A stretch of DNA of 37,465 bases from a virus. Numbering within the stretch: position 1 is the first letter of the stretch; every line of letters begins with the position of its first letter. Positions 13,941-37,465 of the stretch are shown piece by piece. Location of the stretch: positions 1 to 37,465 of IMG/VR virus record IMGVR_UViG_3300032323_001302; one strand, written 5' to 3'. The position numbers and the translations under genes are program-made. The notes beneath the pieces were generated by a model. The model had not been told where the DNA came from, made no database searches, and was given only the letters and a program-made list of their open reading frames with translations.

Positions 13941-14428
13941 TTAAGGGCAAGGTTAAGGTGTGGTTCTTGAATGGGGACTTAGTAAGGGTATATCATAACT
14001 CTCGTTCTACTGGTATGGTTACATTTTATAATATAACTAAAGATCGTTTAGAAACATGCCTACTTTCTGATTTTAAAAAAGGTAGAGAAAGGGCATATAG
14101 CGTAGCAGAAACTGCAAAGCTTGTTAATAGACATAGAAAGTATATGCCAAGTTTAATTAAACGAGGAATCATACCTCCACCAATAGGTGCTAAGCTTAAT
14201 GGTGAAAGAGGTTTTACAATTAGGTCATACTATTCTGAATCACACGTAAGAGAGATACGTGCTATACTTGCAAGCATACATATTGGGCAACCAAGAAAAG
14301 ACAAGTTAATAACTAATAATATGACCCCTACAAGCCAAGAATTGACAAGGCGTATGGGAGACGGTATACTTACATATACTAAAACCGAAGATGGACGATT
14401 TATACCTGTTTGGAGCGAAACCCTTTAG
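13886..14428 (+). CDS. Helix-turn-helix (MerR/excisionase-like) DNA-binding protein
   Basis: Up to 180 residues from the ATG at 13886. Residues about 65-110 hold a MerR-type winged HTH: RAYSVAETAKLVNRHRKYMP followed by LIKRGIIPPP and a basic wing. The N-terminal part (KVKVWFLNGDLVRVYH) is a beta segment, and the C-terminus (LTRRMGDGILTYTKTEDGRF) may be a second small domain. The start is uncertain: AGAAGG is only 3 bases from the ATG at 13886, whereas a GTG at 13958 has AAGGGC at 9 bases and removes the overlap with the zinc-ribbon gene (giving 156 residues). Likely role: phage transcription regulator, perhaps controlling late genes; this is inferred. A promoter follows it. Confidence 0.7.
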   Translation: MDTSKGKIQSEAYNNEPVIKGKVKVWFLNGDLVRVYHNSRSTGMVTFYNITKDRLETCLLSDFKKGRERAYSVAETAKLVNRHRKYMPSLIKRGIIPPPIGAKLNGERGFTIRSYYSESHVREIRAILASIHIGQPRKDKLITNNMTPTSQELTRRMGDGILTYTKTEDGRFIPVWSETL

Positions 14429-14490: not shown

Positions 14491-15432
14491 ATGGCTAAAG
14501 ATTATAACTTAAAGATTGATCAGGGCGCAGACTGGTATCTTGATATTGACTATAAGGATTCAAATGAAGATCCAATAGATCTTTCTGGCTATATTGCAAA
14601 AATGCAATTTAGAGAAGAGACTCAATCAACAAATGCTCCAGTAACACTGCAATCATTAAAAGCCACAATAACTGCTATTAATGTTTCATCTGGTTTTGCA
14701 ACATATACTGCCTCAAACTCTTTTACCGTTGGACAAAATGTAAATATTAGAAATGTTGTTCCAGTTGAATATAACCTAGATAATGCTGTAATTACTTCTG
14801 CAAATTCTACATCTTTTTCAGTTATAGATACTGAGTCATTGTTATTTGCTACATATAGCAAAACAACTTTAGAAGAAGCATCTGCAAACGATGGAACAAT
14901 TACATCAACTTTAACAATTACATTAAATAATGAAACATTTAAGGGCGCAGACGGAGCTAACCTATCTGCTCGTGTTACAAATGTCCCAGCAGGGCTGACT
15001 GCATCATTAATACGTACAAATTCAAGAGTCGCTACTCTTAGTTTTACTGGTAGTGCAACAGCACATGCAAATGCAAATGACGTAACAAACCTAACTATTA
15101 CATTTTTAAATGCAGATATAAATGGTGGCTCTGTCACTGCAGTTCGTGGTTTAAATACAAATAGCCTACAGCTAAATTTTGCAAACCCTGACGGAACAGG
15201 TGCATACGTTGCTCCAACATCAACTTTGCCACCAGCTATTGCATATGCGGATTCAGGAATATCAATAGTTCCAGAAACTGGACATTTATCAATTCATGCA
15301 ACTGCAGCACAAACCACATTGCTTACCGCAAGACAGTATCAATATGATTTAAAAATTATTTCTACTGATGGAATAGTTACTAGACTAATCCAAGGAGTTG
15401 CTGCAATAGACGATCAGGTAACACGTGTCTGA
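14491..15432 (+). CDS. Baseplate-periphery / fibre-attachment protein
   Basis: 313 residues. The start (YNLKIDQGADWYLDIDYKDS, then IDLSGYIAKMQFREE) and the end (QYQYDLKIISTDG, then RLIQGVAAIDDQVTRV) match a small beta-sandwich protein common in phage baseplates and at the head of tail fibres, in which both ends pair into one domain. Two modules are inserted in the middle. About residues 53-110 is a beta module with VVPVEYN and STSFSV, also present in the tail hub. About 125-215 is a repeat-type domain with VTNVPAGLTASL and FTGSATAHANANDVTNLT, known from bacterial extracellular proteins. The stop overlaps the next fibre gene by 8 bases. Probable role: anchoring the following fibre to the tail tip. 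Confidence 0.65.
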   Translation: MAKDYNLKIDQGADWYLDIDYKDSNEDPIDLSGYIAKMQFREETQSTNAPVTLQSLKATITAINVSSGFATYTASNSFTVGQNVNIRNVVPVEYNLDNAVITSANSTSFSVIDTESLLFATYSKTTLEEASANDGTITSTLTITLNNETFKGADGANLSARVTNVPAGLTASLIRTNSRVATLSFTGSATAHANANDVTNLTITFLNADINGGSVTAVRGLNTNSLQLNFANPDGTGAYVAPTSTLPPAIAYADSGISIVPETGHLSIHATAAQTTLLTARQYQYDLKIISTDGIVTRLIQGVAAIDDQVTRV

Positions 15433-32110: not shown

Positions 32111-34726
32111 ATTAAAAGGTTATTAAGAGTAGCGTTAGTACTATCACTTGCTTTGTTTCCCCTGTTTTTAGTAATTGATAAAGCTCACGCATTGCCAGAT
32201 TCTTACACTTTGTCAGAGTATAACTCTGATCTTATTTCTGCTCAATCTGCTGTAGAAAGTGCAACTGCAGAGGTTGCTATTGCTCAAGCTAACGTAAACG
32301 CAAGCGCTGTTTACCATGAGACAGTAACTGTTAGTGGGCAAAGTAACGTTGTTGTTAATGGAACTTTTGATAATGCTTCCGCATGGTCTAACATTGGTAT
32401 GGGAAATAATACCACAATTACCAACTCTAATATTCCTCGTGTATACGATGGAGTTCTAATCGGGTCCTACTCTTCAGGTGTTTTTGTACTTCAAACAGGA
32501 ACCTTTTCATCTCCTACACGTAACGTAACTTTTTCATACAGAATGTCAAACAACAACGATAACTGGGGAAATAGGCCACAGGCTGACTATTACAGAGTTG
32601 AATTTCGTACCTATGCTGCAAATGGAACAATGTTGAACTATTACAATGTTCAAGGTTCCAATATTTTTGGATGGACTACTTTTACTAATACACCTCAGTT
32701 ATCTCAAGACGCTGTTAGTTGGGATATTGGATTTAGATTTGCTGATGCAGGATTTTGGAACGGTAACTTTGCAGCAAGTCTTGATGATGTAAGTCTTATT
32801 GCAGGAACTACAACTGTTACTCCTGCATACACGTCCTATGATCCGTCCTTAGTTGCGGTACTGCAGCAAAAACAACAGGCATTACAAGCCGCCCAAAGTG
32901 CACTGTCTTCTTTTCCAGCATTGACAATAAACTCTCCATCTAACCTTGTAGCATCAGTAGAGAGCGAAATAATTACTCTAGACTGGGATGCTCCTGCATC
33001 AGGGTTAATTCCTGAAAGATACGCTATCTCTTGGACTATTCCAGGAAATGCTGGATGGGGTATAGCCACAGGAAATGTTGGTGACGCAAACGCATTAAAC
33101 ACCTCAATAGTTATTAACAAATCAGTTATAGCCTCTACAGGTGGATGGAATAAAAACTACACTTTTAAAATTAGATCTGACCATGATTCAGGCAGTATGT
33201 ATTCTGCGTGGTCAAATGAAGTAACCGTAAACATTGTAGAGCCATATACTCCAGCATCATTACCATTTGCTTACCAGTATAGATTGGATGAGAATGCCCA
33301 GATTTCTATATCTGCACCTTCAGGGAAAATGATTGAAACAATAACTGCCTGGTACGGAGATCCAAATGACGGTAACTACGGAGCATTAGTAACTGATACA
33401 TTGACTTCATTAAATAGTGGAGAAACCTCTACAGTTATTTCTGCTACCAACGATGTGTTTGGAGATCCAGTTCCTGGCGTAGGCAAGATATTAATATTTA
33501 ATATTTCATATATAGATTTGCCTGACTCAACTCCTCCAGTGATTGTTGTTATACCTTCAGAAACTAACACAGTAACTACCCCTAGTGAAACAACAACTGT
33601 AACAACGCCTGCTCCTAGTGAAACATCAACAGTGACAGCACCAACTGGGCCAACTGAAGCAGAAATTGCAGCAACAACTGCAGCACTAGCAGCAGCCCAA
33701 GCAGCAGAAGCAGCAAGAATACAGGCAGAGACAGCAGCATTGATTGCAGCCCAAGCAGCAGCAGCCCAAGCGGAGGCTGAAAGAATTGCAGCACTTCAAG
33801 CAGCACAGGAAGCAGAAAGAATTAAGGCAGAAGCAGAGGCAAAAGCAGAGGCTGATCGTATAGAGGCGGAGATTGAAGCAGCAAGAATTCAAGCAGAAAT
33901 AGAAGCCAAGGCAGAAGAAGATCGCATTGCAGCAGAACTTAAAGCAGCAGAAGAAAAAGCAGAAGCGGAAGCAAAGGCAGAGGCTGAACGCATAGAGGCA
34001 GAGCGAATAGCAGAAGAAGAAAGAATTGCGAAAGAAGCAGAAGCAGAAGCTGAGCGTATAGCAGCAGAAGAAAAAGCTATTGCAGAAGCAAAGGCAAAAG
34101 CAGAGGCTGAAGCACTTGCAGAAAAAGAAAGAATTGCAGAAGAAGCAGAGGCAAAAGAATTAGAAGAAGCAAAAGCTGAAGAAGAAGAGGCTGAAGCAAA
34201 AGAAGAAGAATTAAAAGATATACTTGAAGATGCAAAAGATGGAAAAGAATTAACTGAAGAACAAAAAGATATTGTAGTGTCAGCATTGCTAGAAGATCTT
34301 AAGCCTGGAGAATCAATTTCAGCAGCACAAGTACAAGCATCTGGAGTATCTTATGCAGACCTTCCACCAGAAACACCAGTAGAACTACGTACTGACGAAA
34401 ATGGAAACGCACTTGTTATTACTGCTGAAGTTGCTGCAAACATAGAATTAGTTCAAGACCCAGGGGCATTATTAGAGGCAGCCTTTACTGATCCAGGAGC
34501 AGCTTTAGCAGCACTTGGAAGTATTGGTGCAGATATGACAGAGGCAGAAAGAGAAGAAGCAACAGAGATGGTTGTAGCTACAGTTGTAGCAGCAGGAGCA
34601 GCAATTAATGCAGCAGCAGTTGCTGCAGGTGGAGCAACAGGTGGAAGCACAGGTGGAGGAAGTTCTGGCGGAGGTGGTGCATCAGGTGCCAATTCACCAG
34701 GTTCAAGAGGAGGAAGAAAATGGTAA
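32111..34726 (+). CDS. Secreted lectin/FN3/coiled-coil surface protein, probable ATT start
   Basis: 871 residues if it starts at ATT 32111. AAGGAG (32099-32104) is 6 bases before this ATT, which gives a complete signal peptide (KRLLRVALVLSLALFPLFLV to AHA, residue 28). No ATG, GTG or TTG occurs in frame between the stop at 32075 and the TTG at 32153, and that TTG would cut the signal peptide in half. Domains: galactose-binding-like (about 80-230, from NGTFDNASAW), FN3 (about 273-376), a further beta domain, a Thr/Pro linker (480-513), a long Ala/Glu/Lys coiled coil (about 515-710), an acidic helical domain and a Gly-rich end. The C-terminal domain (LGSIGADMTEAEREEATEMV) resembles, from memory, surface proteins of freshwater actinobacteria. 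It could bind cell wall or virions. Confidence 0.72.
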   Translation: MKRLLRVALVLSLALFPLFLVIDKAHALPDSYTLSEYNSDLISAQSAVESATAEVAIAQANVNASAVYHETVTVSGQSNVVVNGTFDNASAWSNIGMGNNTTITNSNIPRVYDGVLIGSYSSGVFVLQTGTFSSPTRNVTFSYRMSNNNDNWGNRPQADYYRVEFRTYAANGTMLNYYNVQGSNIFGWTTFTNTPQLSQDAVSWDIGFRFADAGFWNGNFAASLDDVSLIAGTTTVTPAYTSYDPSLVAVLQQKQQALQAAQSALSSFPALTINSPSNLVASVESEIITLDWDAPASGLIPERYAISWTIPGNAGWGIATGNVGDANALNTSIVINKSVIASTGGWNKNYTFKIRSDHDSGSMYSAWSNEVTVNIVEPYTPASLPFAYQYRLDENAQISISAPSGKMIETITAWYGDPNDGNYGALVTDTLTSLNSGETSTVISATNDVFGDPVPGVGKILIFNISYIDLPDSTPPVIVVIPSETNTVTTPSETTTVTTPAPSETSTVTAPTGPTEAEIAATTAALAAAQAAEAARIQAETAALIAAQAAAAQAEAERIAALQAAQEAERIKAEAEAKAEADRIEAEIEAARIQAEIEAKAEEDRIAAELKAAEEKAEAEAKAEAERIEAERIAEEERIAKEAEAEAERIAAEEKAIAEAKAKAEAEALAEKERIAEEAEAKELEEAKAEEEEAEAKEEELKDILEDAKDGKELTEEQKDIVVSALLEDLKPGESISAAQVQASGVSYADLPPETPVELRTDENGNALVITAEVAANIELVQDPGALLEAAFTDPGAALAALGSIGADMTEAEREEATEMVVATVVAAGAAINAAAVAAGGATGGSTGGGSSGGGGASGANSPGSRGGRKW

Positions 34727-34899
34727 GAATACTAAAGAATATAGTTAAGGATCTAATAGACCAGGCATGGACTCTCCTTGGAATGTTTATTGCCTGGGTA
34801 GTTTTGGACGGAAGCGCAAAGACTATAGTTGGATACGGAATCATAGCAACCACAGGCCTATGGATATTAACTAGTCCTTTTAGAAACAAAGAAGAGTAG
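34720..34899 (+). CDS. 59-residue two-helix membrane protein, holin candidate
   Basis: Found by translating the gap: ATG 34720 inside the previous gene's last codons (7-base overlap) to TAG 34899. Two membrane helices, about residues 15-32 (AWTLLGMFIAWVVL) and 36-51 (VGYGIIATTGLWIL), are joined by a short polar loop (DGSAK). The start is basic and amphipathic (MVRILKNIVKDLIDQ) and the end charged. Size and topology fit class II holins, but no endolysin gene is recognisable nearby, so the role is unproven. Tight coupling to the coiled-coil surface protein also permits a role in anchoring or exporting that protein. Confidence 0.6.
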   Translation: MVRILKNIVKDLIDQAWTLLGMFIAWVVLDGSAKTIVGYGIIATTGLWILTSPFRNKEE

Positions 34900-35483: not shown

Positions 35484-35512
35484 TTGACACTATATGGGGT
35501 AGATGGTATACT
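35484..35512 (+). promoter_or_regulatory. Strong promoter before the Ntn hydrolase gene
   Basis: TTGACA (35484-35489), 17-base spacer, TATACT (35507-35512), with ATGG giving an extended -10. This is the best consensus match in the window. The start near 35519 leaves about 23 bases to ATG 35542, with AGAGGGG between. Confidence 0.8.
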
Positions 35513-35541: not shown

Positions 35542-36066
35542 ATGACTTGTATTGCTGTAGTAAAACATGAAGATAAAATCTACATGGCTGGAGATCGTGG
35601 TGCCTCTGATGATGGAACTATTTTAGCACTTGATGCTCCAAAAGTTTGGAAGATTGGTCCATATCTTATTGGATATGCTGGTGCAATGGACGGAGAAAGA
35701 ATCCGTTATAACTTTAAGCCAACACCTCCAAACATAAAAGATACTGATAAGTTTATGCAAACCAGATTTATCAAAGAGCTTCGTGAATTTTATAATGAGT
35801 TCTGGGTGGATACATCTAAGGATGGAGATCTTGGTTTAATTATTGCAGTTCGTGGTGAAATTTATGAACATAGTTCTGCTGATATGTCTTTGTCTAAGTA
35901 TACTCTTCCATACCTTGCTATGGGCTCAGGCGCAGAATATGCTTACGGAGTTTTGTATGCAACAGATAAACAAAAGAATGCAAGAAACCGTGTAGTATCT
36001 GCAGTTTCTGCAGCAATTAGATTTAGCCCATCTTGCATGGGTCCAGTTGACGTAGTAAGTCTTTAG
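35542..36066 (+). CDS. HslV / proteasome beta-like Ntn hydrolase
   Basis: 174 residues from ATG 35542 (AGAGGGG 7 bases upstream; a TTG at 35536 is too close to it). After removal of Met the first residue is Thr (TCIAVVKHEDKIYMAGDRGA). Counting from this Thr1, Asp17 (AGDRG) and Lys33 (APKVWKIG) fall exactly at proteasome/HslV positions, and MGSGAEYAYG places Ser128-Gly129 at the site of the family's Ser129. The Gly-rich YLIGYAGAMDG after Lys33 and the end (CMGPVDVVSL) also fit. It would be a self-compartmentalising threonine peptidase in the cytoplasm. No unfoldase (HslU, ClpX, Mpa) is encoded nearby, so it would need a host ATPase, act alone, or have another amidase-type substrate. Confidence 0.82.
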   Translation: MTCIAVVKHEDKIYMAGDRGASDDGTILALDAPKVWKIGPYLIGYAGAMDGERIRYNFKPTPPNIKDTDKFMQTRFIKELREFYNEFWVDTSKDGDLGLIIAVRGEIYEHSSADMSLSKYTLPYLAMGSGAEYAYGVLYATDKQKNARNRVVSAVSAAIRFSPSCMGPVDVVSL

Positions 36067-36075
36067 GAGTATACT
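36047..36075 (+). promoter_or_regulatory. Promoter giving a leaderless transcript for the acidic protein
   Basis: TTGACG (36047-36052), 17-base spacer, TATACT (36070-36075). The -10 ends 6 bases before ATG 36082, so transcription should begin at or beside the A of the start codon. A TAGGAG (36064-36069) lies before the -10 and would only serve read-through mRNA. Confidence 0.7.
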
Positions 36076-36081
36076 TTATAT

Positions 36082-36300
36082 ATGAGCGATGAATTTGATG
36101 AAATCTTAAAAGACATTCAGCAAAAAGAATCAGACTTTAATGAGTTTGATATCTGGCTTGAAAATGGAATTTCCAGAGGATGGATAACAGAACCATTTTG
36201 TAATACTCATGATGGAGACCCATACATGACTGAAGAAGAAATGCAGGAATGGGAAGAAGGCGGAGATCCCTGCCAATTAGTTTTCAAAATCAAACAATAA
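36082..36300 (+). CDS. Small acidic protein, function unknown
   Basis: 72 residues, strongly acidic. The first half is a helix (FDEILKDIQQKESDFNEFDI), followed by a compact motif WLENGISRGWITEPFCNTHD and a second acidic stretch (EEEMQEWEEGGDPC) with Cys-Asp pairs. Short proteins with this Trp-x4-Gly-Trp pattern followed by CxTHDG occur in actinophages from my recollection; function is not established. It sits between the Ntn hydrolase and subtilase genes on its own promoter. Whether it partners either protease is open. Confidence 0.75.
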   Translation: MSDEFDEILKDIQQKESDFNEFDIWLENGISRGWITEPFCNTHDGDPYMTEEEMQEWEEGGDPCQLVFKIKQ

Positions 36301-36321: not shown

Positions 36322-37188
36322 ATGAAGAAAATCGTAGTAGTTCTAGCAGCGCTAGTTATGTCACTGGTTACTATTTCACCAGTACAGGCACAAGACCAGA
36401 AGGTATTAGCTATTATTGATACCGCAATTGATTCATCAAGAATGACAAATGTAATTCATGAAGTATGTTTTACATATAACAAGACATGCAATAATAAGTC
36501 TGGATTTGATGAAGGAAAAGGATCTGCAAGAATTAATGATTGGAGAATTAGAGGAGCACTTCATGGATTCAGTATGGCCCAAGTTGCAACTATGGCAGAT
36601 CCAAATGTAAAGATTGTGTTTATTAGAATTTCTGACGAAAAAGTATATGACACATTTTCAATTATTCGTAATGATGGTGGATCATTGGCTCGTGCTCTTG
36701 AGTGGGTATCCAATAATGCATCACGCTTTAATATCAAAGCTGTTTCTATTAGTCAGTCACGAAGTAACTTTTCAGTGGGAACCTGCCCTTCTGACTCATT
36801 ATTTGAATCATCTGTTAATAAACTTAGATCACAAAATGTTCCAACTTTTGTAGCAACGGGAAATGATTCTAAGAAAAATCAAATTGGATTTCCAGCATGT
36901 GTAAGTGGTGTAATCTCAGTAGCAGGAACAGATGCAGACTATAATGTTGTTAGATCAAGCAATATTAATGCAACAACAAGTTTGCTTGCTTTTGTATGTT
37001 TTAGTTTTAGAGGGCAAGCCTGTGTGGAAACCTTAGATTACTTTGGGGTGTCAAGACCAATAGTTGGAACATCTGCTGCTACAGTTCTTGCTGCTAGTCT
37101 TTATCTTAGTAAGAATACTATGAATAGTTTTAATGAGTTCTTTTTGGCATTGCCAAAGTCAAACGGATATTCATATATCTCAAAGTAA
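36322..37188 (+). CDS. Secreted subtilisin-like serine protease (S8)
   Basis: 288 residues, with AAGGAA about 5 bases before the ATG. The signal peptide is residues 1-23 (MKKIVVVLAALVMSLVTISP, then VQA). Subtilase triad in order: Asp33 (AIIDTAID), His81 (LHGFSMAQ), Ser251 (VGTSAATVL), plus oxyanion Asn181 (VATGNDS). The catalytic domain is shorter than in most subtilases (mature about 265) and no pro-peptide is visible between signal and Asp. Five cysteines in the mature region (Cys49, 56, 155, 193, 226, 234 region) could form disulphides. It would be active outside the cell membrane; targets may be host surface proteins, S-layer or rival enzymes. Unusual for a phage. Confidence 0.85.
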   Translation: MKKIVVVLAALVMSLVTISPVQAQDQKVLAIIDTAIDSSRMTNVIHEVCFTYNKTCNNKSGFDEGKGSARINDWRIRGALHGFSMAQVATMADPNVKIVFIRISDEKVYDTFSIIRNDGGSLARALEWVSNNASRFNIKAVSISQSRSNFSVGTCPSDSLFESSVNKLRSQNVPTFVATGNDSKKNQIGFPACVSGVISVAGTDADYNVVRSSNINATTSLLAFVCFSFRGQACVETLDYFGVSRPIVGTSAATVLAASLYLSKNTMNSFNEFFLALPKSNGYSYISK

Positions 37189-37195
37189 AAGGTTT

Positions 37196-37268
37196 TGGTC
37201 TGTAGCTCAGTTGGCAGAGCGGGGAGCTGTTAACTCCTAGGTCGCAAGTTCAAGTCTTGCCAGACCAG
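37196..37268 (+). tRNA. tRNA-Asn (anticodon GUU)
   Basis: Full cloverleaf by eye: acceptor TGGTCTG with CAGACCA (7 pairs), D stem GCTC/GAGC, anticodon stem GGGAG/CTCCT around loop CTGTTAA (anticodon GTT at 37229-37231), and T stem GCAAG/CTTGC with loop TTCAAGT. The discriminator is G. CCA is not fully encoded. It reads AAC and AAT, the latter very frequent in these AT-rich genes. Confidence 0.93.
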
Positions 37269-37272
37269 CAAT

Positions 37273-37346
37273 GCGGATATTGCATAGTGATAGTGCGTAA
37301 CCTTGCCAAGGTTAATGTGCGGGTTTGATTCCCGCTATCCGCTCCA
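37273..37346 (+). tRNA. tRNA-Gly (anticodon GCC), CCA encoded
   Basis: Acceptor GCGGATA with TATCCGC (7 pairs), D stem GCAT/GTGC, anticodon stem TAACC/GGTTA around loop TTGCCAA (anticodon GCC at 37305-37307), and T stem GCGGG/CCCGC with loop TTTGATT, which has T in place of the usual C of TTC. Discriminator T, followed by encoded CCA (37344-37346). Confidence 0.9.
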
Positions 37347-37415: not shown

Positions 37416-37465
37416 ATGGTAACACAGTTCGCTATGGATCTTTTCAATGATCCTTTTTTTATTGG
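37416..37465 (+). CDS. Start of an unidentified gene, cut by the window end
   Basis: ATG 37416 with AAAGGGG about 7 bases upstream; the frame is open to the window end. Only the first 16 residues are present (MVTQFAMDLFNDPFFI). The Asp-Pro-Phe-Phe start has a faint likeness to the beginning of phage Hsp20-type small heat shock proteins, but this is far too little to assign. The promoter and stable 5' hairpin suggest strong expression. Confidence 0.6.
   Translation, partial: MVTQFAMDLFNDPFFI

Follow-up and report, generated by a model that had tools for sequence, protein, structure and literature searches.

A viral gene for a proteasome-like N-terminal threonine peptidase with a conserved genomic slot and a conserved promoter

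The 37,465 nucleotides of viral DNA analysed here (IMG/VR record IMGVR_UViG_3300032323_001302; the window) carry, at positions 35542 to 36066 of the plus strand, the gene for a proteasome/HslV-like N-terminal threonine peptidase. It is a real and intact viral gene, ordinary in kind. Computation showed the fold of its product, the catalytic set, purifying selection, a conserved slot in the genome and a conserved promoter. From these results we infer a ring-forming threonine peptidase that would act on unfolded protein during infection and independently of an unfoldase, and we give this reading of its activity, assembly, independence and role an even chance of being correct.

The open reading frame starts with an ATG at 35542 and its stop codon ends at 36066. 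It encodes 174 amino acids, with MTCIAVV at the N-terminus and CMGPVDVVSL at the C-terminus, and consists of Met followed directly by Thr1, without a propeptide. Numbered after removal of Met, the product contains Thr1 (codon ACT, 35545 to 35547, plus strand), Asp17 (35593 to 35595, plus strand), Lys33 (35641 to 35643, plus strand), Gly43 at the oxyanion position, and Gly127-Ser128-Gly129. The first-pass annotation of this DNA had placed Thr1, Asp17 and Lys33 in the exact proteasome register and had pointed to a Gly-Ser-Gly near position 129 and to the closing C-terminal residues; its residue reading was correct throughout. The Pfam search that it proposed was carried out, and the model PF00227 (Proteasome) matched the peptidase with 23.7 bits, above the curated cut-off of 22.4 (E=4.2e-5). 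A six-frame search of the window record with PF00227 gave no match, probably because the single sequence lies near the threshold. The full length of the protein was covered by PHROG_1040, named 'peptidase HslV family' (E=8.4e-22), and weak matches were obtained with the NCBIfam HslV and proteasome-beta models. The HslV equivalog model TIGR03692 scored 20.7 bits, far under its cut-off of 157.75. When a profile of 61 relatives was compared with the PDB, HslV (4.6e-11) and BPH (4.2e-9) were matched over nearly the full length.

An AlphaFold2 monomer, calculated from 61 aligned sequences (the window protein and its IMG/VR relatives), had a mean pLDDT of 90.7 and a pTM of 0.88. Residues 51-57 and 65-86 are helical in the model, which closes with two further helices (131-140 and 147-161). 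Comparison with the PDB yielded 1159 matches at E<=0.001 with BPH and HslV on top, the best solved structures being BPH of Thiobacillus and of Cupriavidus (TM 0.77-0.81), followed by HslV. The viral models that the peptidase matched best were other phage proteins, the first at TM 0.90 and the second, annotated as HslV, at 0.87. The predicted structure is of the alpha-beta-beta-alpha Ntn type, and the protein has Thr1 after Met, Asp or Glu at position 17, Lys33 and an oxyanion Gly. The Ntn-hydrolase fold and intact catalytic set put forward by the first-pass annotation were thus recovered by PF00227, by the model and by the invariant residues described below; a failure to match any Ntn-hydrolase, which it had named as the outcome that would speak against it, was not observed, and the three catalytic residues lie in register. 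The active fold is well supported, and the geometry of Thr1, Asp17 and Lys33 would follow from the fold together with the register.

In the 61-sequence alignment, Met, Thr1, Asp17, Lys33, Gly43, Gly127 and Gly129 were all invariant, and an alignment of 16 sequences was likewise invariant at Thr1, Lys33, Gly43, Gly127 and Gly129. The sole change at position 17 was Asp to Glu, found in the allele group formed by loci L182, L186, L188 and L240. Glu at position 17 is a functional substitute, used by the active Thermoplasma beta subunit. The dN/dS of relatives against the window copy was about 0.04, and the peptidase is under purifying selection. An apparently slower evolution of the peptidase than of the terminase (95% against 79%, in loci chosen by peptidase similarity) was dropped as an ascertainment bias, because peptidase identity in terminase-picked loci ranged from 44 to 97%, with a median of 82%, equal to that of TerL. 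In the four loci with Glu17 an allele swap was observed, the peptidase being 44-47% and TerL 83-93% identical.

The window is related to the Streptomyces Stanwilliamsviridae (TerL 54%, DnaE 55%) and has its core genes in the order seen in BillNye (helicase-primase-SSB-DnaE-UvsX-RecB-RuvC-TerL). By TerL, DnaE and gene order it belongs with Stanwilliamsviridae-like actinophages, a kinship that makes an actinobacterial host likely for the phage group. We take the group to be of freshwater origin from general knowledge of such phages, the records themselves bearing no habitat label. Searches retrieved 583 relatives from IMG/VR, and 156 annotated phage records matched. Among relatives selected by their terminase, each of the 13 with 8.5 kb or more of downstream sequence had the gene, and in the same slot (13/13). 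In Yaboi and BillNye, both Streptomyces Stanwilliamsviridae, the peptidase gene was not found, although positive controls were detected; the downstream genes labelled 'peptidase' that were tested proved to belong to papain-like and C92-like families and not to the Ntn-hydrolases. Arthrobacter phage Hum25 encodes a distant homolog, annotated 'protease'. A genome collection search, which reaches close relatives only, returned no close relative, and a bacterial source of the gene was not upheld within that reach. Defence-system models gave no match, and a scan with the phiTY18 query found nothing.

A sigma70-type promoter, TTGACA-17-TATACT, is located at 35484 to 35512 on the plus strand and starts 58 nt 5' of the peptidase start codon. 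With a score of 11/12 it is the top plus-strand site between 25 and 37.5 kb, in line with the first-pass annotation, which had placed this gene on the best promoter of the window. In counts that include many near relatives and hence do not represent independent events, a TTGACW-N16-18-TATACT promoter of at least 10/12 preceded the peptidase in 101/102 loci, compared with 6% of random 110-nt stretches, and the strict motif was present in 1.28 Mb as 228 copies on the gene strand and 0 on the minus strand, 100 of the 228 preceding the peptidase and many others preceding 72-aa, endolysin and Hsp20 genes. The promoter was kept also ahead of alleles only 44-47% identical in protein. Since the motif is common to the peptidase, 72-aa, endolysin and Hsp20 genes, the peptidase is tied to a shared promoter set. 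The 72-aa gene is preceded, at 36047 to 36075 (plus strand), by another promoter-like sequence of this type, TTGACG-17-TATACT, and in relatives TTGAC[AT] stands in the corresponding place. The strict motif occurs in the whole window only at 14342 and 35484; the copy at 14342 is situated about 150 nt 5' of a gene at 14491.

A neighbourhood survey of 59 loci revealed three constant neighbours of the peptidase, namely a large signal-bearing protein, a membrane protein of about 60 aa and an acidic protein of 72 aa. The gene for the 72-aa protein (36082 to 36300, plus strand; pI 4.05) was found with the peptidase gene in 59/59 loci, and its product had no match in annotated phages. It begins 15 nt past the peptidase stop codon, and the earlier description of the peptidase as a single small gene has to be qualified accordingly. 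Upstream, the family of the 59-aa membrane protein (34720 to 34899, plus strand) was present in 59/59 loci, as were relatives (median 709 aa) of an 857-aa signal-bearing protein, which has no confident family match. The latter, encoded at 32153-34726 of the window, has a long region of repeats rich in Ala and Glu. The S8 subtilase encoded at 36322 to 37188 (plus strand; PF00082, 2.6e-8) starts with a signal-like segment and belongs to a family found in 47/59 loci. It evolves fast (median identity 41%, dN/dS about 0.39), while the adjoining peptidase evolves slowly. A 94-aa membrane protein, whose best PHROG match is named 'nuclease' and which also has a weak holin match, was present in 39/59 loci, a CHAP endolysin in 35/59 and Hsp20 in 29/59. 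A pair of tRNA genes, tRNA-Asn and tRNA-Gly, lies downstream of the subtilase at 37196-37346.

The window ends within a gene for the small heat-shock protein Hsp20, of which it contains the first part (37416 to 37465, plus strand). The 16 residues encoded there, MVTQFAMDLFNDPFFI, agree without exception with the N-terminus of the Hsp20 of locus L029, itself a PF00011 match at 5e-18. Hsp20 was present in 14/16 related records of the window group and in 0/29 phages whose peptidase is of the TSSFRMGQ type, and it is common in aquatic phages; it was therefore rejected as a general partner of the peptidase and regarded as group-specific context only. An Hsp20 gene is also located about 1.6 kb from the homolog on a Rhizobium etli plasmid (L099 875-1351), which may be chance.

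The preferred reading assigns the product to the N-terminal-threonine, proteasome-like 'group I' peptidases, on the HslV/BPH side, as a presumably catalytically competent enzyme whose Thr1 would be exposed by the host methionine aminopeptidase. By analogy with BPH, it would most likely assemble into a homo-oligomeric ring chamber of 6- or 7-fold symmetry, in which unfolded or peptide substrates would be cleaved without a dedicated unfoldase. A strong sigma70-type promoter of the gene itself, of the type common to the 72-aa, Hsp20 and endolysin genes, would drive transcription, and the likely role would be the clearance or recycling of denatured host or phage protein in infection, with the phage Hsp20 perhaps supplying substrate. 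A broader proposal, namely a viral proteostasis module in which a large group of freshwater actinophages would combine a motor-free proteasome-like chamber, feeding by an Hsp20 holdase and the promoter type of the endolysin, is speculative and rather improbable.

No HslU was found in the window. Among related records, which are fragments, so that an ATPase may lie elsewhere in the genome, HslU was found in 0/8 and AAA_2 in 0/12, and neither HslU nor any AAA+ unfoldase turned up in records of up to 116 kb. The first-pass annotation had noted that no ATPase partner is encoded here and had suggested looking for the gene beside hslU in related phages, and both the window and its relatives agree with it. 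Four weak AAA matches all scored under the cut-off, and the best of them, considered as an unfoldase, was rejected, as it reads as an APS-kinase/nucleotidyltransferase protein. A fusion-like gene with APS-kinase and nucleotidyltransferase parts was observed in a related phage (L088 1495-2262).

Against the preferred reading, a host unfoldase could serve the peptidase. The detached peptidase ring would then borrow a host AAA+ protein (Mpa/ARC, ClpX or ClpC) and degrade chosen host proteins, in line with the cooperation of HslV and the proteasome with AAA+ partners and with the failure to find such a partner encoded in the related records. To our knowledge, however, HslU is generally missing from actinobacteria. 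Genome searches also found no unfoldase for BPH (PMC5777263), and Fuchs et al. (2021) saw no co-occurring AAA+ partner for the new homologs that they described (PMC8665760). The hijacking of a host unfoldase, as first suggested for this gene, gained no positive support, and we consider it unlikely.

The constant neighbours bear on another possibility, that the peptidase serves solely to process or ligate one phage or host protein, with connectase-like specificity, e.g. its large repeat-bearing neighbour or the 72-aa one. Every locus surveyed also encodes the 72-aa protein and the large signal-bearing one, and in L182 and L188 the peptidase (46-47% identical) and the large protein (47%) differ as if swapped together, with TerL at 91-93%. 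The 59-aa and 72-aa proteins of the same two loci are, however, still 71-88% identical, indicating that the partners do not all co-vary, and the peptidase model shows both helices of the first pair, a pair that is absent from connectase (PMC8665760). Such a specialised function appears doubtful. A vestigial or moonlighting fold without a peptidase role is less probable still: a literature search on the function of phage members retrieved no study and no reported activity, but the dN/dS of about 0.04, the invariant active site and the conserved promoter of its own all argue against it. Most improbable is that the peptidase co-assembles with the host 20S proteasome and poisons or redirects it, as in the earlier suggestion of poisoned host protease rings, which drew no positive support: actinobacteria, the likely hosts, often carry a 20S proteasome and the fold is compatible, but poisoning would not call for an intact set of catalytic residues, which are nevertheless retained without exception (Thr1, Asp/Glu17 and Lys33), the peptidase is nearest to BPH/HslV and not to PrcB, and homologs also occur in phages of hosts without 20S, e.g. 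E. coli and Vibrio.

Phage proteasome homologs are widespread, and the one studied here belongs, as a fixed gene under its own conserved promoter, to an abundant, presumably freshwater phage group. Isolated relatives, such as the T5-like phage Eps7 on E. coli and Arthrobacter phage Hum25, make the function of a viral homolog directly testable. As possible carriers of AAH, Hum25 and the window group also bear on a gap pointed out by Fuchs et al. (2021), who saw AAH in no phage specific to actinobacteria (PMC8665760).

The peptidase had first been regarded as a candidate for an undescribed function, which could not be upheld: PPH and AAH were reported in phages by Fuchs, Alva and Lupas in 2021 (PMC8665760), a Salmonella jumbo phage with HslV and without HslU was noted in 2020 (PMC7823757), and PHROG 1040 already has a name. 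The phage proteins of PHROG_1040 (T5-like Eps7, Vibrio, Moorella and others) have the same catalytic set as the window peptidase, to which they are 22-35% identical. In a tree of 35 sequences, a well supported branch (97/95) separated the window clade from the clade of members with TSSFRMGQ, in place of which the window peptidase has a GYAGAMDG-type motif. The wider grouping around the TSSFRMGQ clade comprised T5-like, Moorella and Ochrobactrum phages and plasmid proteins of Streptomyces, Rhizobium and Paraburkholderia. AAH shares with the window peptidase its group I character, compact size, Thr1/Asp17/Lys33 and occurrence in phages. The plasmid homologs may be AAH, but in contrast to the window peptidase they carry TSSFRMGQ and sit in the other clade. 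PPH is likewise phage-borne and of group I; identity with PPH was ruled out because PPH has about 140 aa and is without helix H2, whereas the window peptidase has 174 aa and both H1 and H2 (helices 51-57 and 65-86). HslV shares the fold and the catalytic residues. The HslV-like character initially proposed agrees with the PHROG_1040 family match and the fold, but strict HslV was excluded because the score is far under the equivalog cut-off and no HslU was found in the records searched. BPH forms tetradecameric double rings, binds epoxomicin and in some species stands in an operon with Hsp33 (PMC5777263). Its structures (5ovs, 5ovt and 5ovu) are the best solved fold match, it is likewise without propeptide and unfoldase, and its C-terminus is similar (APIDV, compared with GPVDV in the window peptidase). 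The two proteins are, however, only 17-22% identical, and gating may differ, because the loop after helix H2 of the window peptidase, VDTSKDGD, is short and mildly acidic, whereas the pore loop of BPH is long and acidic. The kind of peptidase is thus already known, and what is new is its genomic and regulatory setting, which is unusually consistent, with a fixed slot, a conserved promoter and a separate clade.
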